From the NCBI RefSeq assembly GCF_002900975.1, contig NZ_PJON01000002.1:496001-560000 (forward strand): DNA of 64,000 nucleotides, read 5' to 3'. Source of the stretch: Tabrizicola aquatica. GTDB taxonomy: Bacteria; Pseudomonadota; Alphaproteobacteria; Rhodobacterales; Rhodobacteraceae. Position numbers and translations under genes: made by a program. Under the pieces are notes generated by a model. That model did no database searches. It had not been told where the DNA came from and saw only the letters and a program-made list of their open reading frames with translations. Shown piece by piece: positions 38,599 to 57,445 of the stretch. The number at the start of each line of letters is the position of its first letter. Within the stretch, counting starts at the first letter, position 1.

Positions 38599-38630
38599 GG
38601 GAACAACCGGCGCGGGCGCCGGTTGTTCCC
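38599..38630. promoter_or_regulatory. Perfect palindrome carrying EcfG-type promoters in both directions
   Basis: Fifteen-base arms GGGAACAACCGGCGC and GCGCCGGTTGTTCCC flank a GG spacer. Each strand therefore reads GGAAC-N16-GGTT. The minus-strand reading fits the Pro-rich gene (start 38571). The same DNA can also fold as a terminator-like hairpin for the PRC-barrel gene that ends at 38642, but no T-run follows. Confidence 0.7.
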
Positions 38631-41471: not shown

Positions 41472-41738
41472 ATGAATACGGACACCGGACATATGGGGCA
41501 GGGCGCGTTGGAAGGGCGGCTGCTGGCGCATCGTCGCCTGCTGGCGCTGATCCTGCAATCGCTGCCCGACCCCCGGCGCGAGGCGCTGCACGACTGGCTG
41601 GTCGGCCGCTCTATCCTGCATGACGGGCAAGAGGACCCCGGCGCCGTCCCGACCGAGGCCAATGCGATCGCTCTGGCCGTGGCGGACGAATACCGGCTGC
41701 TGGCGGACATGCTGGGAAACAGCGGTCCGGTCAGTTGA
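41472..41738 (+). CDS. Hypothetical 88-residue protein in GSR island
   Basis: A soluble alpha-helical protein with no recognised family: EGRLLAHRRLLALILQSL, ALHDWLVGRSILHDGQEDPG and EANAIALAVADEYRLLADML. GGGAGG precedes the ATG, and an EcfG-type promoter precedes that. Its stop overlaps by eight bases the stop of the convergent receiver/sigma-2-like gene, making it a candidate partner or antisense influence on that gene. Function unknown. Confidence 0.65.
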   Translation: MNTDTGHMGQGALEGRLLAHRRLLALILQSLPDPRREALHDWLVGRSILHDGQEDPGAVPTEANAIALAVADEYRLLADMLGNSGPVS

Positions 41739-42300
41739 ACAGGTGATGCGCCCGGGCGGCCAGGGCCTTTTCCATCAACTGGTGCAGCCAGCCCGCCAGC
41801 GAGGTCACGCCAGAGAGGTCGGTTTCTTCCTGCAGGGCCAGAAGTAGCGTCGCCTCGACCAGGCGGTCGGCGGCCAGCGGGTCCGAGACCATGAGGCGGG
41901 CGGAAACGCGCAAACGGGGTAGCACCTCGTCCACCGTGGTGTCGTAGCGGTCCAGCGTCATCTCGGCCATGTCCACCGCCTCCAGCGCGGAGCAGGGTTT
42001 GCCCAGGCGGGGAACCTCGGCAAAGCGGGCGGGGATCTGGGCCATGTCGATGCCCGAGTAAAAGACAAACGGCACGCGGGCGCGCATCAGGTTGTCGGCC
42101 AGCCGAAACACCTGTTGTCCACGCAGGTTGACGTCCAGAACGGCCAGATCGGCGCCGAAGGCATGACATTCGGCCGCTTCCAGGGTTGGGAAGGGGCCAA
42201 GGATGTCGGCTTTGGCGCTGCGGAAATGGTCTGCGAGCATCCAGGCGCTGAGGTGATCGTCTTCAGCGATCAGAATTCGTTTGCCGACCAGTTGCCGCAT
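41731..42300 (-). CDS. Receiver-domain protein with C-terminal sigma-2-like region
   Basis: A 189-residue protein. Residues 1-118 are a CheY-like receiver: acidic pair D14/D15, phospho-acceptor D56 (LAVLDVNLRG), S82 (FYSG) and K101 (LGKPCS). Residues 127-158 align without a gap to residues 9-40 of the EcfG sigma factor encoded at 53.5 kb, with 12 of 32 identical (e.g. P, LR, AR, D-LV, TLL-A), and WLHQLM matches WLFTIM further on. Classical PhyR has sigma-like domains first and the receiver last; here the order is reversed and only a sigma-2 equivalent is present. Inference: a sigma-mimic that titrates NepR when phosphorylated. No EcfG-type promoter was found upstream. Confidence 0.8.
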   Translation of the reverse strand: MRQLVGKRILIAEDDHLSAWMLADHFRSAKADILGPFPTLEAAECHAFGADLAVLDVNLRGQQVFRLADNLMRARVPFVFYSGIDMAQIPARFAEVPRLGKPCSALEAVDMAEMTLDRYDTTVDEVLPRLRVSARLMVSDPLAADRLVEATLLLALQEETDLSGVTSLAGWLHQLMEKALAARAHHLFN

Positions 42301-44739: not shown

Positions 44740-46560
44740 ATGGACGACCGTTCAGGGGGCGATTGGACCGGGGCGCAGGTGCATCTGTTGGCGCGAACCG
44801 CAGGGGCAGAGTTCTGGGGTGTGCGACCAACCGGGCCGAACGAATGGAGTTTTGCGCTTTGGGCCCCGTCCTGTCCCGAAATCATGCTGGAGCTGGAGGG
44901 CGCGACCCTGCCGATGCAGCGGGGTGAGGATGGCGTCCATCGGCTGCGGGCGCGGGCACCCGAGGGGGCGGTCTATCGGTTCCGCGCCGGCGATCTGCGC
45001 TTTGCCGATCCTGCGTCGGTCCACCAATGGGGCGGGGTCGAGGGTCATTCCGTGCTGCGCGACCTGCGGCGGCTGGCGGATCGGTCCGCGCGACGTGTTC
45101 CAACGCCATTTGCGCGTCAGGTCATTGCCGAGGTTCATGTCGGTAGCTTCACCCCCGCCGGCACCTTCGCCGCCGCTGCCCGTGCGCCCGAGTTGCGCCG
45201 GTTGGCCGACCTGGGCGTCACCGCGATCGAGCTGATGCCGCTGGGCCAGTTCCCCGGCACGCGCGGCTGGGGCTATGACAGCGTGCTGCCCTATGCGCCG
45301 CAGGACAGCTATGGCGGCCCCGAGGATCTGGCCGGGCTGATCGACACCGCGCATGGCTTGGGTCTGTCGGTCTATCTGGACGTCGTGTTCAACCATTTCG
45401 GCCCGAAGGGGAATGTGCTGAGCAAGATCTGCCCCGAATTCTTTCGCGACGAGGAAAACGATTGGGGCCAGAAGATCGACTACACGCGCCCCGCGGTGCG
45501 CGCCTTCTTTCTGGACTGCGCACGGCACTGGCTGCGGGACTATCACTTTGACGGACTGCGCTTCGACGCGATCCACGAGATGGAGGATTTGTCCGCGCCA
45601 CCCATCGAGGAAGAGCTGCCGCGGACGTTGCGGGCCGAATTCCCCCACGTGCATCTGGTGGCCGAGGATTGCCGGAACGGCACCGCGCTGTATGAGCCGG
45701 CGCAAGGGTTGTACGATGCCAACTGGGACGACGACTATCACCACGCGCTGCATGTCCTGCTGACGGGTGAAAGCTTTGGCTATTACGCTGACTACACCCC
45801 GCAGCCGTTGCAGGATCTGGCGTTGGCCCTGCGTGATGGGCAGGCGATGCAGGGCCAGGTCCGCCCGGACGGCTGCACCGCCAAGGGACAACCGTCGGCC
45901 CATCTGCCCGCCAGTGCCTTCGTGAACTTCAACCTGAACCACGACCATGCCGGCAACCGGCCCCGGGGCGAGCGGCTGGTCAGCCTTGTGGGATCTGCGC
46001 GCGCGCAGGTGGCGCACGCGCTGTTGCTGACCGCGCCCTATGTGCCACTTCTGTTCATGGGCGAGGAATGTGGCTCTCGCGCGCCGTTTCCGTGGTTCGG
46101 CGACTATGGCGGCAGCGCGGCGCAGAAGATGCTGGAGGGGAGGCGCGAGCAGTTCGGCGATCTGCCGGGCGGTGGACGCGACATGCTGGACCCGTTCGAT
46201 CCGGCGACGGCCGGGCTGGCCCATCCCTATGCCGAGGCTGCGCCCGACCAGGACAGTTGGCTGAACCTGACGCAGCACCTGCTGGACCTGCGGCGGCGGG
46301 TCTTGCTGCCGTTGTTCGATTCGGGTCGGGCTGCCGCGACGCGGGTGGCGGTGATCGGCCCGCAGGCCCTGACCGTCGACTGGGTCTTTCACGCCGGTTG
46401 CCTGCGCGCGGTCGCCGGGTTCGGGGGCGCCGGGTTCGGGGCCGCCGGGACGAAGCCGGCAACGGCGGGCCCGGCCGGTGCTTCGCAGCCCCTGTGCCAG
46501 ATCGGGGATGGGGATGGCCCCTGGTTCAGGCTGTGGCTGACCGAGGCCGCGCCGTCATAG
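44740..46560 (+). CDS. treZ: Malto-oligosyltrehalose trehalohydrolase
   Basis: TreZ releases trehalose from the maltooligosyl-trehalose end. The 606-residue GH13 protein has an N-terminal beta-sandwich (about 20-100), then the barrel with HVGSFTPAGTF, GWGYDSVLPYAPQDSYGGPEDL, YLDVVFNHFGP, the nucleophile in FDGLRFDAIHEM (about 268-279), acid/base Glu in LVAEDCRNG, and NFNLNHDHAGNRPRG. Its partner TreY is not in this window, so trehalose would need a distant treY or another source. Its last six bases overlap the convergent kinase gene. Trehalose is a stress protectant, consistent with the island. Confidence 0.92.
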   Translation: MDDRSGGDWTGAQVHLLARTAGAEFWGVRPTGPNEWSFALWAPSCPEIMLELEGATLPMQRGEDGVHRLRARAPEGAVYRFRAGDLRFADPASVHQWGGVEGHSVLRDLRRLADRSARRVPTPFARQVIAEVHVGSFTPAGTFAAAARAPELRRLADLGVTAIELMPLGQFPGTRGWGYDSVLPYAPQDSYGGPEDLAGLIDTAHGLGLSVYLDVVFNHFGPKGNVLSKICPEFFRDEENDWGQKIDYTRPAVRAFFLDCARHWLRDYHFDGLRFDAIHEMEDLSAPPIEEELPRTLRAEFPHVHLVAEDCRNGTALYEPAQGLYDANWDDDYHHALHVLLTGESFGYYADYTPQPLQDLALALRDGQAMQGQVRPDGCTAKGQPSAHLPASAFVNFNLNHDHAGNRPRGERLVSLVGSARAQVAHALLLTAPYVPLLFMGEECGSRAPFPWFGDYGGSAAQKMLEGRREQFGDLPGGGRDMLDPFDPATAGLAHPYAEAAPDQDSWLNLTQHLLDLRRRVLLPLFDSGRAAATRVAVIGPQALTVDWVFHAGCLRAVAGFGGAGFGAAGTKPATAGPAGASQPLCQIGDGDGPWFRLWLTEAAPS

Positions 46561-47940
46561 CACCTGTTCCCGCACGGCGGCCATCGGTGCGGTGATGTCG
46601 CATTCCGCGCCATCTGGCTGCAGACGCAGGTCGACCTCGCCCTGCAATTCCGCCGCCAGCACGTCCAGGATGAGGACCGAGCCAAAGCCCTTGTGCTGTG
46701 TTCGGGCAACCGGTGGGCCGCCGCTTTCGCGCCAGTGCAGGACGAAGGTCTCGACCGGGGTTGCGTTCACGCTCCAGGTCACACGCACCTGACCGTCCGG
46801 CAGCGACAGCGCGCCGTATTTCAGCGCGTTCGTCGCCAGTTCGTGCAGGCCCAGGGTCAGAGCGACCGCCGCGCGCGACGAGAAACGCAGGTTGGGTCCG
46901 TCCTGGGTGATCTGGCCTTGCGGGAAGGGTGACAAAACGGCGGCGACCACGGCCTGAAGGTCCACCCCCTCGCTGGTGTCGCGGGTGATCAGGTCCTGCG
47001 CCCGGCCCAGGGCCAGGATGCGCTTTTCAAACGACTCATAGGCCGCGGTCCGCTCGCTGCCCAGCGTCTGGCGGGCAATGGCCTGGACGGTGGACAGGAT
47101 GTTCTTCACGCGATGCTTCATCTCGCCGACCAGCAGGCGATGCAGACGCTCCACGTCGTGGCTGGCGGTGCCGTCGCGGGCGATATGGGCTGCGCCGATG
47201 ATCTGGCCCTGGGGGTCAAGGACCGGCGATACCGCCAGCGACACATGCACGACGCTGCCATCCTTGCGCCAGCGGACCACGTTGCGCGAGGGTTGCCGCT
47301 GCCCGCGCAGCACAAGGTCAAGCGCGGTGCGATCCTCGTCGGGGCGGCGGGAAAGCATCCAGACGGGCTGGCCCAGCACCTCGTCGGCGTCGTAGCCATA
47401 CAGCCGCCGCGCCCCACCGTTCCAGCTGACGATGCGCAGATCCCGGTCCACCGACAGGATCGCATCATCGGCCGAGGCCACGATGGCGGCAAAGCGGCCG
47501 GGATCGTCCAGCCCGTCAGACGCGGGGGAAGGGGTCATTATGATCAGGATCCCGCGCAGCAGGTCGTCGGGACAGCGCAGGGGCACGGCCAAGACATCGT
47601 GCGGCGATCCGCCCAACAGCAGGGCACGCGCCCCACGCTGAGTGGGATCGGTTTGCACGGCCTGCACCAGCGACTGCAACGCCTGCAACTGGGGCATGTC
47701 ACGCAGCCGCAGCCGCCCAAGGTCGCGGTGCGAGGCGCCGTCCACCAGACGCTTCCAGGCCGCATTCCATAAAAGGACATGCTCGGGTCCGGCAAGCAGC
47801 AGCATCGGCGCATCGCTGGCCAGAATGGTGCTGAAGGCCGCCGCAAGGCAGGGCGGCCACTCCTCTCGGGGTCCAAGCGCCGTTGTCGACCAATCCACGT
47901 CCGGGATCAGCCGCCGTACCCCCACATCTGTCGCCGTCAC
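46555..47940 (-). CDS. HWE-family sensor histidine kinase with PAS domains
   Basis: A 461-residue soluble kinase: two PAS-like sensor regions (about 25-140 and 150-260; DAILSVDRDLRIVSWNGGARRLYGYDADEVLG, quoted over two pieces DAILSVDRDLRIV and LYGYDADEVLG), then the HWE transmitter. The phosphorylated His is H276 in EMKHRVKN; HELATNALKYGAL is the N-box and LHWRESGGPPV contains the WxE that names the family. HWE kinases are the usual inputs to PhyR-NepR-EcfG. An EcfG-type promoter lies at 48010-48034 and nepR-like is the next gene upstream on the same strand. Confidence 0.92.
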   Translation of the reverse strand: MTATDVGVRRLIPDVDWSTTALGPREEWPPCLAAAFSTILASDAPMLLLAGPEHVLLWNAAWKRLVDGASHRDLGRLRLRDMPQLQALQSLVQAVQTDPTQRGARALLLGGSPHDVLAVPLRCPDDLLRGILIIMTPSPASDGLDDPGRFAAIVASADDAILSVDRDLRIVSWNGGARRLYGYDADEVLGQPVWMLSRRPDEDRTALDLVLRGQRQPSRNVVRWRKDGSVVHVSLAVSPVLDPQGQIIGAAHIARDGTASHDVERLHRLLVGEMKHRVKNILSTVQAIARQTLGSERTAAYESFEKRILALGRAQDLITRDTSEGVDLQAVVAAVLSPFPQGQITQDGPNLRFSSRAAVALTLGLHELATNALKYGALSLPDGQVRVTWSVNATPVETFVLHWRESGGPPVARTQHKGFGSVLILDVLAAELQGEVDLRLQPDGAECDITAPMAAVREQVL

Positions 47941-48009: not shown

Positions 48010-48034
48010 AACCGGCAGATCACGAAATTGTTCC
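48010..48034 (-). promoter_or_regulatory. EcfG-type promoter for the HWE kinase gene
   Basis: Minus strand: GGAAC (48034-48030), 16-base spacer, GGTT (48013-48010), 70 bases before the kinase ATG and just after the nepR-like stop. It suggests feedback of the stress sigma factor on its own sensor. Confidence 0.8.
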
Positions 48035-48343: not shown

Positions 48344-48369
48344 GGAACAATGCCCCGCGCGGCACGGTT
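48344..48369 (+). promoter_or_regulatory. EcfG-type promoter for the large RGG/SDD repeat protein
   Basis: GGAAC (48344-48348), 17-base spacer, GGTT (48366-48369), 28 bases before the ATG at 48397. The spacer and flanks resemble the katE promoter. 48224-48343 holds no gene. Confidence 0.85.
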
Positions 48370-48396: not shown

Positions 48397-50310
48397 ATGG
48401 CCCGCACGACCACATCCAGTCCACAATCCTCCACCCCGTCGGACGGCGAAACGGGGGATAAATCCACCACGACCGAGAGCAAATCCCAGGGACGCGCCGA
48501 CCAGGGCAAGGCGCAAGGCATGCCTGCCGGTGGCAGCGAAGGCTCGCAGTCCCAGGGCGGCCAGCCGCAGGATCCGCTGCGCCTTTTGCGCAGCCAGCGC
48601 GAGACGGTGCGCCAGCTTCTGGACCGCGGGGTCCAGGCTGAAGCGCAGTCCACCACCCGTCTGGCGGAAGCCTGGGAATTGCTGACCCGGATGCAGGGCC
48701 GCATCGACGACACCGTCTTTGCGCTGGGCGAAGCGGGCGGCGGGCAGGGGCAGACCTCGGAGCGCAGCCTCGCCGAAGGCGCGTTGCAGATGGATTGTGT
48801 CGCTCTCCTGTTGCGCCCGTCGCCGTCGATGGGCCGAGAGATCGAACGTGCCCGGCTTGGCCTGGCATCGCGTTGGGCGAAGGAACTTTTCCAGCGCGCC
48901 GAGGCGGTCGAAGGGCCGTTTCTGGCGAAGGCCAGGGCCGAGGGCATCAAGCCGGACAGCCTGGGACGGCAGTTGGCTGCCTGCAAGACCGCGTGGGAGG
49001 CAAACCCCCACGCTCGACAGCCGCGCTTGCGGCATTTCATGGCAATCGAGGAGGATAGAATGCCAAGAAACTCAAACACCCCCGAACGTGACGACCGTGG
49101 TCGGTTCATGAGTGACGATGAGCGTGGCGGCGGTGGCAGCCGTGGCCGCAGCTCTGGCTCTGGCTCTGGCCGTTATGACTATGATGACCGGGGCGGCAGC
49201 TCCAGCCGGGGTCGCAGCTCCAGCCGGTACGAGGACGATGACCGGCGGTCGTCGCGCGGCCGCAATGACGACGACGACCGGGGTTGGTTCGGAGACAGCC
49301 AGGGCCACGCCGAAGCGGCCCGCCTGGGCTGGGAACGCCGCAGGGCTTATGACGACCGCGACGGTGGCCGCAGCTCGCGCAGCGGGAGCGGCCGTGGCTC
49401 GGACGACCGTGAGCGTGATGAGTATGGCCGGTTCATGAGTGACGACGACCGCCGAGGTTCGTCGCGCGGCGGTAGCAGCCGGGGTGGGCGTAACGGCTCG
49501 GACGACCGGGAGTTGGACGAATACGGCCGGTTCATGAGTGACGACGACGACCGCCGGGGTTCTTCGCGCGGCGGTAGCAGCGCCCGTGGCCGTGGCTCGG
49601 ACGACCGTGAGCGGGACGAGTATGGGCGGTTCATGAGTGACGACGACGACCGCCGGGGTTCTTCGCGCGGCGGTGGCAGCGCCCGTGGCCGTGGCTCGGA
49701 CGACCGTGAACGGGATGAATATGGCCGCTTCGTCAGTGACGACGACGACCGCCGGGGTTCTTCGCGCGGCGGTAGCAGCGCCCGTGGCCGTGGCTCGGAC
49801 GACCGTGAGCGGGATGAATATGGCCGCTTCGTCAGTGACGACGACGACCGCCGGGGTTCTTCGCGCGGCGGCAGCAGCGCCCGTGGCCGTGGCTCGGACG
49901 ACCGTGAACGGGATGAATATGGCCGCTTCGTCAGTGACGACGACGACCGTCGCGGCTCGTCGCGCGGCGGCAGCAGCGCCCGGGGCCGTGGCTCGGACGA
50001 CCGTGAACGGGATGAATATGGCCGCTTCGTCAGTGACGACGACGACCGCCGGGGTTCTTCGCGCGGCGGCAGCAGCGCCCGGGGCCGTGGCTCGGACGAC
50101 CGTGAACGGGATGAATATGGCCGCTTCGTCAGTGACGACGACGACCGCCGGGGTTCGTCGCGCGGCGGTGGCGGTGGTCGGGGCGATGACCGCAACCAGG
50201 GTGGCTGGTTCGGTGACCGCGAAGGTCATGCCGAAGCGGCCCGCCGTGGCTGGGAACGTCGCGACGACGACGACCGGCGCGGCAGCTCGCGATCGTCGTC
50301 GCGCCGCTAA
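48397..50310 (+). CDS. Low-complexity repeat protein with KGG-like segments; possible two-part gene
   Basis: A 637-residue protein. Residues 1-60 are Ser/Thr/Gln-rich, 65-220 form a helical domain (RLLRSQRETVRQLLDRGVQ...; not recognised), and 222-637 are Arg/Ser/Gly/Asp-rich. The tail holds eight 33-residue repeats of GSDDRERDEYGRFVSDDDDR-RGSSRGGSSARGR (99 bp in DNA) and two copies of a WFGD-x-GHAEAARxGWERR segment like the KGG-repeat stress proteins. An in-frame ATG at 49060 has its own AGGAGGATAGA site, so the repeat part could also be made alone. Charged, disordered, probably nucleic-acid-binding; driven by an EcfG-type promoter. Confidence 0.75.
   Translation: MARTTTSSPQSSTPSDGETGDKSTTTESKSQGRADQGKAQGMPAGGSEGSQSQGGQPQDPLRLLRSQRETVRQLLDRGVQAEAQSTTRLAEAWELLTRMQGRIDDTVFALGEAGGGQGQTSERSLAEGALQMDCVALLLRPSPSMGREIERARLGLASRWAKELFQRAEAVEGPFLAKARAEGIKPDSLGRQLAACKTAWEANPHARQPRLRHFMAIEEDRMPRNSNTPERDDRGRFMSDDERGGGGSRGRSSGSGSGRYDYDDRGGSSSRGRSSSRYEDDDRRSSRGRNDDDDRGWFGDSQGHAEAARLGWERRRAYDDRDGGRSSRSGSGRGSDDRERDEYGRFMSDDDRRGSSRGGSSRGGRNGSDDRELDEYGRFMSDDDDRRGSSRGGSSARGRGSDDRERDEYGRFMSDDDDRRGSSRGGGSARGRGSDDRERDEYGRFVSDDDDRRGSSRGGSSARGRGSDDRERDEYGRFVSDDDDRRGSSRGGSSARGRGSDDRERDEYGRFVSDDDDRRGSSRGGSSARGRGSDDRERDEYGRFVSDDDDRRGSSRGGSSARGRGSDDRERDEYGRFVSDDDDRRGSSRGGGGGRGDDRNQGGWFGDREGHAEAARRGWERRDDDDRRGSSRSSSRR
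49396..50169 (+). repeat. 99-bp coding tandem repeat (7 full units plus a partial eighth)
   Basis: Units start every 99 bases at 49396, 49495, 49594, 49693, 49792, 49891, 49990 and 50089. Units 4-8 are nearly identical at DNA level, indicating recent duplication; units 1-3 carry Met in place of Val and other changes. All keep the reading frame. It is not a CRISPR array. Confidence 0.95.
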
Positions 50311-53490: not shown

Positions 53491-53964
53491 TCAGACCTCT
53501 TCGCCCAACGCGGTGCGCAACTGGCGGCGGCCGCGGTTGATCCGGCTTTTGATCGTGCCGATGTCGCAGCCCAGGATTTCGGCGGCGGACAGGTAGCTTT
53601 CGCCAGTGACCAGCACCAGGACAATGGCCTCGCGGTAGGGTTGCGGCAGGTCCAGAAGGGCGGCCTCCACCTCTTTGCCGCGCATGTGCCAGTATTGCAC
53701 CGGCTGGCTGATCGGGACCGAGGAGGCGCAATCCTCGGCCCCCGGTCGTTCGCGCGCCAGCTTGATGCACTGGCTGTAGAACCGGTTGCGCATGATGGTG
53801 AAAAGCCAGGCCCGCATGTTGGTGCCGGGGGTGTAGGAGTCCACCTTCTCGATGGCGCGCAGAAGCGTGTCCTGTACCAGATCGTCCGGGTCGCCGGACC
53901 GACCGCAGAGCGACCGCGCGAACAGACGTAGCGCGGGGATGTAACTCAGAATGTCATCCGACAT
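53491..53964 (-). CDS. ecfG: EcfG-type (group ECF15) RNA polymerase sigma factor
   Basis: A 157-residue ECF sigma factor. Region 2 (about 8-68) contains IPALRLFARSLC, DPDDLVQDTLLRAI and NMRAWLFTIMRN, the last two typical of EcfG; region 4 (about 98-150) has LPQPYREAIVLVLVTGESY and GCDIGTIKSRINRGRRQL. It would direct RNA polymerase to GGAAC-N16/17-NGTT promoters, many of which surround it, and be held by the NepR-like protein. The ATG at 53962-53964 is chosen to match family N-termini. A weak promoter candidate lies at 54020-54044. Confidence 0.9.
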   Translation of the reverse strand: MSDDILSYIPALRLFARSLCGRSGDPDDLVQDTLLRAIEKVDSYTPGTNMRAWLFTIMRNRFYSQCIKLARERPGAEDCASSVPISQPVQYWHMRGKEVEAALLDLPQPYREAIVLVLVTGESYLSAAEILGCDIGTIKSRINRGRRQLRTALGEEV

Positions 53965-54019
53965 ATGGAATTGCCCTTGGGTTGTCTTGGCGGCAGCTTT
54001 TTTCCCGCTTTGGAAAGGC

Positions 54020-54044
54020 AATGCTTGGGACGGGGGGCAGTTCC
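54020..54044 (-). promoter_or_regulatory. Weak EcfG-type promoter candidate for the sigma-factor gene
   Basis: Minus strand: GGAAC (54044-54040), 16-base spacer, CATT (54023-54020). The -10 departs from NGTT in the same way as the treZ candidate. Autoregulation of ecfG is known in other species. Confidence 0.4.
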
Positions 54045-54119
54045 GGCGCGGTGCGGTCATTTCTGCCGACCGGCGAAGCGTCGCCGACATCCGCCGGTCA
54101 ACCGGCAAGTCCCGGCCAT

Positions 54120-54145
54120 GGAACCTTCGCCCCGCTTGAAGGGTT
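54120..54145 (+). promoter_or_regulatory. EcfG-type promoter for ku-ligD
   Basis: GGAAC (54120-54124), 17-base spacer, GGTT (54142-54145), 24 bases before the first Ku ATG. A GGAAC at 54152 has no -10. Confidence 0.85.
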
Positions 54146-54168
54146 GGAACGGGAACGGAGGGCAAGAA

Positions 54169-54999
54169 ATGGCACCGCGCGCGAACTGGAAGGGCCGGAT
54201 GGTGGTGGGCGAGGTCGGCTGCGGCGTCGGGCTTTACACCGCTGCTTCCACCTCGGACCGGATCGCGTTCCACACGATCAACCGGGCGACCGGCAACCGC
54301 GTCCAGCGCCGGTTTGTCGACAGCGAAACCGGCAAGCCCGTCCCGCGTGAGGATGAGGTGAAGGGATACGAGGTCGACGAGGGCGACCATATCCTGCTGG
54401 AGGACGAGGACCTGGCCGCCGCCGTGCCCGAAAGCGACAAGACGCTGCGGCTGGACCGGTTCATCGACTGCGACGACGTGGACACGCTGTTCTTCGACCG
54501 ACCCTATTACCTTGCGCCCAGCGATCCCGCGTCGGTCGAGGTCTTTGCGCTGATCCGCGAGGGGATGGCCGCCCGCAGCGTGGCGGCGCTGGCGCGGACG
54601 GTGCTGTTCCGCCGGGTGCGGACGCTTCTGATCCGGCCGCAGGGTCTGGGGCTGGTGGCCAGCACCCTGCAATTCGACCACGAGGTGAAAGTCCCCGCCG
54701 AAATCTTTGCCGATATCCCCGACATCCGCATCGAAGGCGAGATGCTGGACCTGGCCGCCCATATCATCGGCACCAAGCGCGGCAGTTTCGATCCGGCCGA
54801 GTTCGACGACCGCTACGAGGCGGCGCTTGCCGACCTGGTCAAGGCCAAGCTGGAAGGCCGCAAGATCCAGAAGCCCAAGGCCCGGCGCGAGGACCGCGTG
54901 GTGGACCTGATGACCGCGCTGCGCGAAAGCGCGGGGGCGGTGTCAAAGCCGCGCAAGGCCGGCGCCAAGAAGCCCGCCCCGCGCCGGAAGGCCGGCTGA
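54169..54999 (+). CDS. ku: Non-homologous end-joining protein Ku (first copy)
   Basis: A 276-residue bacterial Ku that forms a homodimeric ring on DNA ends and recruits LigD. It opens MAPRANWKGRMVVGEVGCGV; FHTINRATGNRVQRRFVD and EVKGYEVDEGDHILLEDEDL (about 45-85) are Ku core motifs. The C-terminal 30 residues are Lys/Arg/Ala-rich, the usual DNA-end-binding tail. GGAG is upstream of the ATG, and the stop is one base from ligD. A second Ku is encoded downstream on the other strand. Confidence 0.95.
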   Translation: MAPRANWKGRMVVGEVGCGVGLYTAASTSDRIAFHTINRATGNRVQRRFVDSETGKPVPREDEVKGYEVDEGDHILLEDEDLAAAVPESDKTLRLDRFIDCDDVDTLFFDRPYYLAPSDPASVEVFALIREGMAARSVAALARTVLFRRVRTLLIRPQGLGLVASTLQFDHEVKVPAEIFADIPDIRIEGEMLDLAAHIIGTKRGSFDPAEFDDRYEAALADLVKAKLEGRKIQKPKARREDRVVDLMTALRESAGAVSKPRKAGAKKPAPRRKAG

Positions 55000-55000
55000 G

Positions 55001-57445
55001 ATGGCGCTGGAGACCTATCGCCGCAAGCGCGACTTTCAGGCCACCCCGGAACCGGCGGGCAAAGTGGCGGCGGCACCGGGCAACAGCTTTGTCATCCAGA
55101 AACACGCGGCCCGCCGCTTGCACTATGACCTGCGGCTGGAGATGGACGGGGTCCTGAAAAGCTGGGCTGTGACGCGCGGCCCCAGTCTTGTGCCGGGCGA
55201 AAAGCGGCTGGCGGTGCATGTCGAGGACCACCCGCTGGACTATGGCGATTTCGAAGGCACGATCCCGAAGGGCCAGTATGGCGGCGGCACGGTGATCGTC
55301 TGGGACCGGGGCACCTGGAGCCCCGTCGCGGACCCGGACAGGGGCTATGCCAAGGGGCACCTGGAGTTCGAGCTGAACGGTGAGAAACTGCAAGGCCGCT
55401 GGCATCTGGTGCGGATCAAGGGCAAGCCCGGCGAAAAGCGCGAGAATTGGCTGCTGATCAAGGGCGAGGATGACTTTGCCCGGACCGAGGACGCGCCGGA
55501 TATCCTGGAGGAGATGCCGCTGTCGGTTAAGACCGGCCGCGATCTGGCCGAGGTGGCAAAAGGGGTGGCCGCGAAGGCCCCGAAAGCCACCAAGGCTAAG
55601 ACCGCGAAGCCGCGCAAGCGCCAGGCCGTGGTCGATCTGCCGGATTTCGTGCCGCCCATGCTGGCAACCCTGGTCGCGGCGACGCCGAAAGATGAGCGTT
55701 GGCTCCACGAGATCAAGTTCGACGGCTATCGCCTTCAGGCGCGCATCGACGGCGGCAAGGCCCGGTTGCTGACCCGTAGCGGGCTGGACTGGACGGACCG
55801 GCTGGCCCCGATTGCCGATGCGCTGGGCGGGCTGGCCGATCAGGCGCTGATCGATGGCGAGATGGTGGTGGAGACCGGCGCGGGGGCCACCGATTTCTCG
55901 GCCTTGCAAGCGGACCTGTCGGAAGGGCGCGGTGACCGGCTGGTGTTCTATGCCTTCGACCTGATGCACCTGGATGGCGAGGACCTGCGCAAGCTGCCGC
56001 TGACCGACCGCAAGGCCCGGCTGCAACCTCTGTTGAACGGCGCATCGCCCAGTCTGCGCTATAGCGAGCATTTCGAGGATGGGGGCGAGATCGTCCTGCG
56101 CCACGCCTGCCGGTTGGGGTTGGAGGGTGTCGTCTCGAAGCTGCGCGACAGTGCCTATCGCTCGGGCCGGGGGCGCAGTTGGGTGAAGTCGAAATGCTCG
56201 GCCCGGCAGGAATTCGTGGTGGCGGGTTATGTGCCGTCCTCGGTTTCCGGCAGCGCCATCGGCTCGCTTGTGCTGGGGGTGTTCCAGGACGGCGCGTTGC
56301 ACCATGTCGGGCGGGTCGGGACCGGGTTCAGCAACCAGACCGCGCGGCAGTTGTTTGCCCGCCTTCAGCCGTTGGAGACGCGCGATAGCCCCTTTGCCCA
56401 GCGACTGACGGGCGAAGAGGCGCGGGGCGTGCGCCATGTCCGGCCCGAACTGGTGGCCGAGGTCGAGTTTCGCGCCTGGACGGCCGATGGCCACCTGCGG
56501 CACGCGTCCTTCCGGGGCTTGCGCGAGGACAAGCCCGCGGCCGAGGTGGTGCGCGAAGCCGCCCCCACGGCCAAGCCCGCGCCCGAGCCGAAGCGCCGGG
56601 TGACGCTGACCCATCCCGACCGGGTCTATTGGCCCGATGTGGGTCTGACCAAAGCCGGCCTTGCCGACCACTATGCCGAGGTCTGGTCCCTGATCGCCCC
56701 GCATGTCACCGGCCGCCCATTGGCGCTGGTGCGGTGTCCGGACGGGATCGGCGGCCAGCAGTTCTTTCAGAAACATGCCTGGAAGGGGATGAACCCGAAC
56801 ATCCTGACTCCGGAAGACCCCGGCGACCCGGGCGAGGGGCTTATCGCGATTGCCGATCTGGATGGGCTGCTTGGACTGGTCCAGTCGGCGGCGCTTGAGA
56901 TCCATCCCTGGGGCTCGACCCTGACGGATATCGAGCGGCCGGACCGGATCGTCATCGACCTCGACCCTGGCGATGGTGTCGGCTGGGACGCGATGATAGA
57001 AGCTGCGCAAGAGGTGCGCGAACGTGTGGAGCAGGCGGGGCTGGCGGCGTTCCTGAAAACCTCGGGCGGGAAGGGGCTGCATGTGGTCGCCCCATTGACG
57101 CCAAAGGCCGAGTGGCCGGTGGTCAAGGCCTGGTGCCAGGCTTTGGCCAAGTCGATGGCGGCGGACCAGCCCGACCGCTATGTCGCGACGATCACCAAGG
57201 CAAAGCGCAAGGGGAAGATCCTGGTCGACTACCTGCGCAACCAGCGCGGCGCGACGGCGGTTGCGCCCTGGTCCACGCGGGCCCGGACCGGTGCGGCCGT
57301 GTCCACCCCCATCGCGTGGGAGGAGTTGGGCCCCGCCATCGGACCCGCGCATTTCACGGTGCAGAACCTGCCCGCCCGACTGGCGGCGGGTGCGGACCCC
57401 TGGACCGATTTCTTCGCCGCGGCCAAGCCCTTGCGGAAAGCCTAG
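55001..57445 (+). CDS. ligD: ATP-dependent DNA ligase D (phosphoesterase-ligase-polymerase)
   Basis: An 814-residue NHEJ ligase with the three modules in the order PE-ligase-polymerase. PE: residues about 30-160 with HAARRLHYDLRLEMDGVLKS. Ligase: nucleotidyl-transfer Lys239 in EIKFDGYRLQ, then the OB-fold region up to ~500. Polymerase (primase-like): about 530-810 with VTLTHPDRVYWPDVGLTK, FQKHAWKGMN and VIDLDPGDGVGW (metal Asp pair). It shares a stress promoter and transcript with ku, giving a complete two-gene end-joining system; its end overlaps the second Ku gene by four bases. Confidence 0.97.
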   Translation: MALETYRRKRDFQATPEPAGKVAAAPGNSFVIQKHAARRLHYDLRLEMDGVLKSWAVTRGPSLVPGEKRLAVHVEDHPLDYGDFEGTIPKGQYGGGTVIVWDRGTWSPVADPDRGYAKGHLEFELNGEKLQGRWHLVRIKGKPGEKRENWLLIKGEDDFARTEDAPDILEEMPLSVKTGRDLAEVAKGVAAKAPKATKAKTAKPRKRQAVVDLPDFVPPMLATLVAATPKDERWLHEIKFDGYRLQARIDGGKARLLTRSGLDWTDRLAPIADALGGLADQALIDGEMVVETGAGATDFSALQADLSEGRGDRLVFYAFDLMHLDGEDLRKLPLTDRKARLQPLLNGASPSLRYSEHFEDGGEIVLRHACRLGLEGVVSKLRDSAYRSGRGRSWVKSKCSARQEFVVAGYVPSSVSGSAIGSLVLGVFQDGALHHVGRVGTGFSNQTARQLFARLQPLETRDSPFAQRLTGEEARGVRHVRPELVAEVEFRAWTADGHLRHASFRGLREDKPAAEVVREAAPTAKPAPEPKRRVTLTHPDRVYWPDVGLTKAGLADHYAEVWSLIAPHVTGRPLALVRCPDGIGGQQFFQKHAWKGMNPNILTPEDPGDPGEGLIAIADLDGLLGLVQSAALEIHPWGSTLTDIERPDRIVIDLDPGDGVGWDAMIEAAQEVRERVEQAGLAAFLKTSGGKGLHVVAPLTPKAEWPVVKAWCQALAKSMAADQPDRYVATITKAKRKGKILVDYLRNQRGATAVAPWSTRARTGAAVSTPIAWEELGPAIGPAHFTVQNLPARLAAGADPWTDFFAAAKPLRKA

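Follow-up and report, generated by a model that had tools for sequence, protein, structure and literature searches.

A 189-residue protein with a receiver domain followed by a sigma-2 domain is encoded in the window, the 64,000-nucleotide stretch of Tabrizicola aquatica DNA analysed here. The protein (P0001, referred to as revPhyR) belongs to a family of receiver-first proteins in which the residues of phosphorylation are conserved, the motifs of EcfG sigma factors are changed, and the genes repeatedly lie near a gene for a small NepR-like protein and an EcfG gene. We lean towards reading the family as response regulators whose output is a sigma-2 mimic: once phosphorylated, the protein would capture the accessory NepR-like protein by the sigma-2 domain alone and so free the accessory EcfG. 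The features of the module in the window are presented in Table 1.

Table 1. Features of the receiver-first module in the window, with the evidence for each
Feature	Position	Strand	Basis
Receiver-first sigma-2 protein revPhyR (P0001)	41731..42300	-	189 aa; ORF/translation, homologs
Receiver domain, SdrG-type, residues about 1-115	41956..42300	-	Asp14, Asp56, Ser82, Lys101; NCBIfam PRK13435 subfamilies (below cut-off), family profile, conservation
Sigma-2-like core, residues 125-176	41773..41928	-	PhyR_sigma2 match (below cut-off), hhalign to EcfG, fold
PAS-HWE histidine kinase, possible phosphodonor	46555..47940	-	Pfam HWE_HK 73 bits, PAS; start as listed
EcfG-type promoter match upstream of the HWE kinase, roughly 70 bp from its listed start	48010..48034	-	GGAAC-N15-18-SGTT
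Divergent NepR-like anti-sigma gene (putative), 55 aa	48056..48223	-	NepR-like profile seeded with it; set vs canonical NepR hhalign 94.65%
Accessory EcfG sigma factor	53491..53967	-	Pfam Sigma70_r2, PhyR_sigma2, Sigma70_r4_2

Domain order and receiver

In PhyR the sigma-like module comes first and the receiver last (PMC3892343). The initial annotation had described the protein of the window as a reversed and half-sized PhyR; both traits were borne out, with the receiver at about residues 1-115, the sigma-2 domain at 125-176 and only about 13 residues after the sigma-2 match. Pfam detected only PhyR_sigma2 in P0001 (residues 125-176, 20.7 bits, E 4e-4, curated cut-off 27) and not the receiver, which NCBIfam receiver models matched at a best E of 7e-6, below their cut-offs. 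Members other than P0001 were gathered by colinear match to the receiver-then-sigma-2 order; across 18 members, Pfam found PhyR_sigma2 in 12 and Response_reg in nine at E<=0.001 (17 and 14 at E<=1); seven families were matched and no sigma-4 model among them at E<=1. Against the NCBIfam PhyR model P0001 scored 14.3 bits, short of the cut-off of 240 bits.

The receiver is complete, as had been claimed for P0001, and remains so in most of the 42 members: 41 retain Asp14, 40 Asp56, 41 Ser/Thr82 and 40 Lys101. The changed residues are found in L046, L081 and L099 (Asp14, Asp56 or Ser/Thr82) and in L041 and L045 (Lys101), so that phosphorylation may not be universal. These five members would suit a reversed switch with the same partners, in which the NepR-like protein is bound as long as the regulator is unphosphorylated and is let go on phosphorylation, or a binding independent of phosphorylation; in the two-PhyR system of Rubellimicrobium, NepR binding by one of the pair is uncoupled from activation (PMC12148442). 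The retention of Asp56 and of Lys101, each in all but two members, suggests however that phosphorylation matters, and we consider either variant distinctly unlikely.

Concerning its affinities, the best solved relatives of the family receiver are 2lpm, which we take to be Sma0114, and SdrG (5ieb), which both score 85 bits; PhyR-type chains reach 40-47 bits. Most rows of the family alignment read PFVF-[FY]-[ST], presumably a spelling of the FAT GUY motif. By sequence the receiver thus falls in the FAT GUY type, but it is not a single-domain protein, as it carries a C-terminal sigma-2 domain; SdrG and Sma0114, nearest by sequence among the solved chains, are themselves without one. SdrG has been counted in the FAT GUY family (PMC5898713).

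The sigma-2 domain

The gapless alignment on which the initial annotation rested, residues 127-158 of revPhyR against residues 9-40 of the EcfG of the window with 12 of 32 identities, was reproduced. The best ungapped score between the two proteins is 65, a value that none of 1000 shuffles reached (mean 27, maximum 49). BLASTP extends the alignment to 61 residues with 17 identities and no gap (E 1e-6 as a single comparison), and runs past WLHQLM/WLFTIM, whose likeness had also been pointed out. The profile-profile comparison proposed at that stage gave hhalign values of 98.4% with the accessory EcfG, 97.4% with canonical EcfG and 95.3% with PhyR. Based on the shuffles, BLASTP and hhalign, the homology to the sigma-2 domain of EcfG holds. 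EcfG (ECF15) sigma-2 is the nearest relative by profile; the family differs from it by the absence of sigma-4, by altered motifs and by the fusion behind a receiver.

Among PDB sequences, the C-terminal profile matched only the sigma factor of 5uxx (RpoE-NepR complex) at E<=0.01, with an E of 3e-4. The C-terminal model (pLDDT 79.9) has three helices, and ECF sigma factors head its Foldseek and VIA rows, which include 5uxx and the PhyR-NepR structure 3t0y. As the Foldseek E-values are weak (0.1 at best, with no row out of 31 reaching 0.001) and the VIA Z-scores (up to 10.8) lie within the chance range for helical bundles, the fold search supports the assignment without proving it. The domain is thus placed in sigma-2 by sequence and by fold, the latter with weak E-values; a full-length single-sequence model, with a mean pLDDT of 51, was set aside. 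The C-terminal domain is short and its partner putative, as would be expected of a mere structural tail or dimer helix on a phosphate-sink receiver. We hold this to be very unlikely, given that in the family alignment the domain is conserved above the linker that precedes it, that it aligns with EcfG over 61 residues without a gap, and that the family is associated with the NepR-like gene.

EcfG proteins mostly have DDLVQ[DE]T where the receiver-first family has DRLVExTL (of the 42 members, 39 have the Arg and 40 the Glu); PhyR is likewise altered at this site. The GTN..RAWLFTIMRN stretch of EcfG is mostly lost, with WL..L[ML] retained. The family accordingly lacks what characterises EcfG sigma factors, namely sigma-2 together with sigma-4, DDLVQ and GTN..RAWLFTIMRN. 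In the Carideicomes member L099 (1544-2116), WMFTIM nearly matches the WLFTIM of EcfG, which has diverged in the others.

A review describes the regions of PhyR that match the contacts of sigma factors with the promoter and core RNA polymerase as apparently degenerated, which would block transcription initiation (PMC8103513), and by analogy the sigma-2 domain of the family is probably degenerated in the same manner. This bears on whether the protein could function within a split sigma factor and provide RNA polymerase with sigma-2 in a phosphorylation-controlled way, as RsoA provides it for SigO. The fold is that of sigma-2, and in SigO-RsoA sigma-2 is likewise found on a separate protein, one which works in transcription (PMC8103513). 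The family differs from RsoA in its altered motifs and its receiver; the exchange of the second acid of DDLVQ for Arg and the loss of most of GTN..RAWLFTIMRN argue against such a function, as does the state of the matching regions in PhyR, and we regard it as most improbable.

Distribution of the family

After removal of copies, 42 distinct members were obtained among the matches listed, with thresholds of >150 bits and >140 of the 191 model positions. Before this removal, a contig scan with one pattern had given full-length relatives at 25 or more genome loci, among them loci of Tabrizicola, Gemmobacter, Aquibium, Mesorhizobium and Carideicomes. Members on plasmids are found in Mesorhizobium, Shinella, Ensifer, Martelella, Paracoccus, Roseivivax and Ketogulonicigenium; 11 of 308 matching plasmid records were examined, giving ten family members and the R. 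phaseoli match H20, which was rejected as a single-domain receiver. Among the matches listed, Tabrizicola soli (78%) is the closest named species, and one metagenome genome reaches 85%.

Across 385 evenly drawn alphaproteobacterial genomes, with at most eight candidates scored per genome, 12 had a match at E<=1e-30 and four of these, own genome included, a match spanning both domains; the family is therefore rare and patchy. Within the genus, eight of 32 genomes (own included) carry both the protein and the NepR-like gene and the other 24 carry neither (Fisher p 1e-7, with relatedness and profile seeding ignored).

The NepR-like gene

The co-located 55-residue protein is called NepR-like with reserve. 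Alone it had no Pfam match at E<=0.1; in the set of 17 such proteins, PF18557 (Pfam NepR) was matched by four at E<=1 (best 2.9e-4) and an NCBIfam scan gave nothing relevant. The next matches of the NepR-like profile are the canonical NepRs: of 30 canonical loci, 26 gave a match at E<=0.5, although one of these, L125, is visibly in a wrong frame. The PxPDR..L core is common to the co-located protein, NepR and the NepR paralogues of Sphingomonas (NepR2) and Methylobacterium; the set differs from NepR in its weak Pfam match and at one helix position, aromatic in 25 of 26 canonical rows and non-aromatic in 16 of 17 rows of the set. We equate this position with Tyr36 of Sphingomonas NepR, which together with L32 matters for the function of that protein (PMC6599016).

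A NepR-like gene (E<0.01) is present in the examined flanking DNA of 32 of the 42 members, 16 of which were profile seeds and 16 not, and lies less than 500 bp away in 16 members; distances were measured from stop to stop between open frames and so run low, and the L073 match counted among the 16 has a weak E of 6e-3, with a stronger candidate 1.1 kb off. The seeds were taken from loci later counted: the NepR-like protein of the window alone (E<0.05) finds one at 16 of the 42 loci, and the profile seeded with those finds 16 more. Considering the 33 members with at least 5 kb of flank on both sides, 26 have a NepR-like gene and 18 an EcfG. Outside family loci the profile matched only canonical phyR loci (14 at E<0.01).

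In 61 whole genomes the profile gave ten matches, nine of them near a receiver-first protein: eight are found in the eight carrier genomes of the genus, within 6 kb, and one beside the G105 member. The tenth, in G028, sits between EcfG-strength and PhyR-strength matches and was therefore judged to be a canonical NepR. Seven of the nine genomes had given rows to the profile (G009 and the non-genus G105 had not); since seven of the eight genus carriers are seeds, this search mainly adds that no such match occurs in the 24 genomes of the genus that lack the protein. For the ten members with no NepR-like gene in the examined flanking DNA, whole-genome search at E<=0.05 found none in three genomes and a match somewhere in the other seven.

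Proposed mechanism

That the protein is an EcfG mimic aimed at NepR, as the initial annotation had it, is supported by the gene association (NepR-like gene in 32 and EcfG, at E<=1e-10 to the EcfG of the window, in 20 of the 42 members). Counting against it, no EcfG was seen in the examined flanking DNA of the remaining 22, and in the window the revPhyR, NepR-like and EcfG genes do not form an operon and lie 5.6 and 11 kb apart. All eight carriers of the genus have, on the same contig and 1.7 to 38 kb away, an EcfG-strength PhyR_sigma2 match which is not linked to phyR.

We infer the kinase, the binding and the direction of switching. HWE kinases, such as that at 46555-47940, would phosphorylate Asp56; near the four plasmid members examined, all five proteins scanned have HWE_HK, and three also contain CheB and CheR parts. 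Phosphorylation may then expose or reorient the C-terminal sigma-2 domain, which, as the gene association also suggests, would bind the NepR-like protein, perhaps through the conserved second half of the latter (EPVPDRLxxLAxxLQxAL). The accessory EcfG would thereby be released and transcribe the stress island. The absence of sigma-4, which in PhyR belongs to the sigma-like module, counts against such a capture; if the model is true, capture of NepR may need sigma-2 only.

The window holds 18 matches to the EcfG-type promoter (GGAAC-N15-18-SGTT) where 3.1 are expected, and is therefore largely a general-stress island; the pattern search found none before the revPhyR gene. Across the family, such a promoter precedes ten of the 42 genes, compared with 838 of 8400 random windows of the same loci (binomial p 0.007).

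Relation to the classical PhyR switch

The window contains no classical PhyR, as had been stated: the sole NCBIfam PhyR match over the cut-off in the own genome is at 684372-685139 of contig C5 (352 bits). This classical phyR lies about 146 kb from the revPhyR gene on the same contig, beside an ecfG and a nepR, and revPhyR is thus not the sole candidate anti-anti-sigma factor of the genome. The initial annotation had named a classical phyR that fully accounts for the control of EcfG as a finding that would tell against its proposal; the gene exists, but does not by itself explain the second set of genes. A third EcfG-like gene of the genome is found on another contig (C6:143287-143754 of G000).

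A PhyR-strength PhyR_sigma2 match (E<1e-20) is also present in all eight genus carriers, which leaves classical control as an alternative for the accessory EcfG. The protein may, moreover, act on the classical switch itself, its sigma-2 domain competing with PhyR or EcfG for the canonical NepR or docking on PhyR-interacting kinases, as an additional SdrG-like element of the relay: the receiver is SdrG-like and SdrG provides input to the Pak-SdrG-PhyT-PhyR relay (PMC5898713), and the NepR paralogues of Sphingomonas and Methylobacterium bind PhyR (PMC6599016, PMC4814048). We give this some weight but think it unlikely, as the genes have for neighbours a divergent NepR-like gene and an EcfG other than the phyR-linked one, and as the classical switch can dispense with the protein (11 of the 24 genus genomes without it have a PhyR-strength match). 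On the capture reading, the module would stand beside the classical PhyR-NepR-EcfG switch, perhaps with cross-talk.

Origin of the family

The family shares with PhyR a receiver combined with an EcfG-like sigma-2, the stress-gene setting, nearby NepR-like and EcfG genes and the changed DDLVQ site. It differs in the reversed order, the lack of sigma-4, a receiver nearer to single-domain regulators, and its place beside accessory instead of canonical NepR and EcfG genes. The permutation of PhyR put forward in the initial annotation is disfavoured, since the receiver is SdrG-type by score and the sigma-2 profile is nearer to EcfG than to PhyR. In the sigma-2 tree (61 columns) the family forms one clade (100/99) and PhyR another (100/99) among the EcfGs; a circular permutation is disfavoured on the receiver, while the AU test on sigma-2 leaves a joint clade with PhyR unrejected (p 0.404). 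The receiver tree is biased, as its single-domain rows were chosen by similarity to P0001, and the family label needs four changes on it, so that a single origin of the receiver is unsupported.

On the receiver evidence, a new fusion is favoured over a permutation of PhyR. More broadly, and tentatively, a little short of an even chance in our estimate, the family may be a separately evolved sigma-mimic switch parallel to PhyR: an SdrG-type receiver would have gained the C-terminal sigma-2 of an EcfG and would run a private module (divergent NepR, accessory EcfG and HWE kinases) that moves with stress islands, whether these are chromosomal or on large plasmids. If so, response regulators may have come to mimic sigma factors on more than one occasion. 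In the open-licence literature searched, as far as its accessible text goes, no description of a receiver-first sigma-2 protein was found.

Half of the completed alphaproteobacterial genomes have at least two EcfG genes, and as of 2013 the extra copies were not satisfactorily explained (PMC3892343). A co-located NepR-like protein and a receiver-first sigma mimic offer a testable answer for some of them. The same paper states that R. etli EcfG2 has neither a response regulator nor an anti-sigma gene nearby (PMC3892343), and in the 40 kb around this gene (PF00052, p42f) we found single-domain receivers, no receiver-first protein and no NepR-like gene; the module therefore does not explain all extra EcfGs.

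Other contents of the window

According to Pfam, the window also encodes a catalase, DUF892 proteins and an alpha-amylase family protein. Beside the accessory EcfG, two + strand ORFs (53965-57445) are presumably Ku and LigD DNA-repair genes, which they resemble. Two opposed and overlapping EcfG-type promoter matches form a palindrome at 38600-38629. A further match, at 48344-48369, goes with a + strand ORF rich in DRERDEYGRF repeats, in which a 99-bp tandem repeat of 7.9 copies extends from 49390 to 50169.
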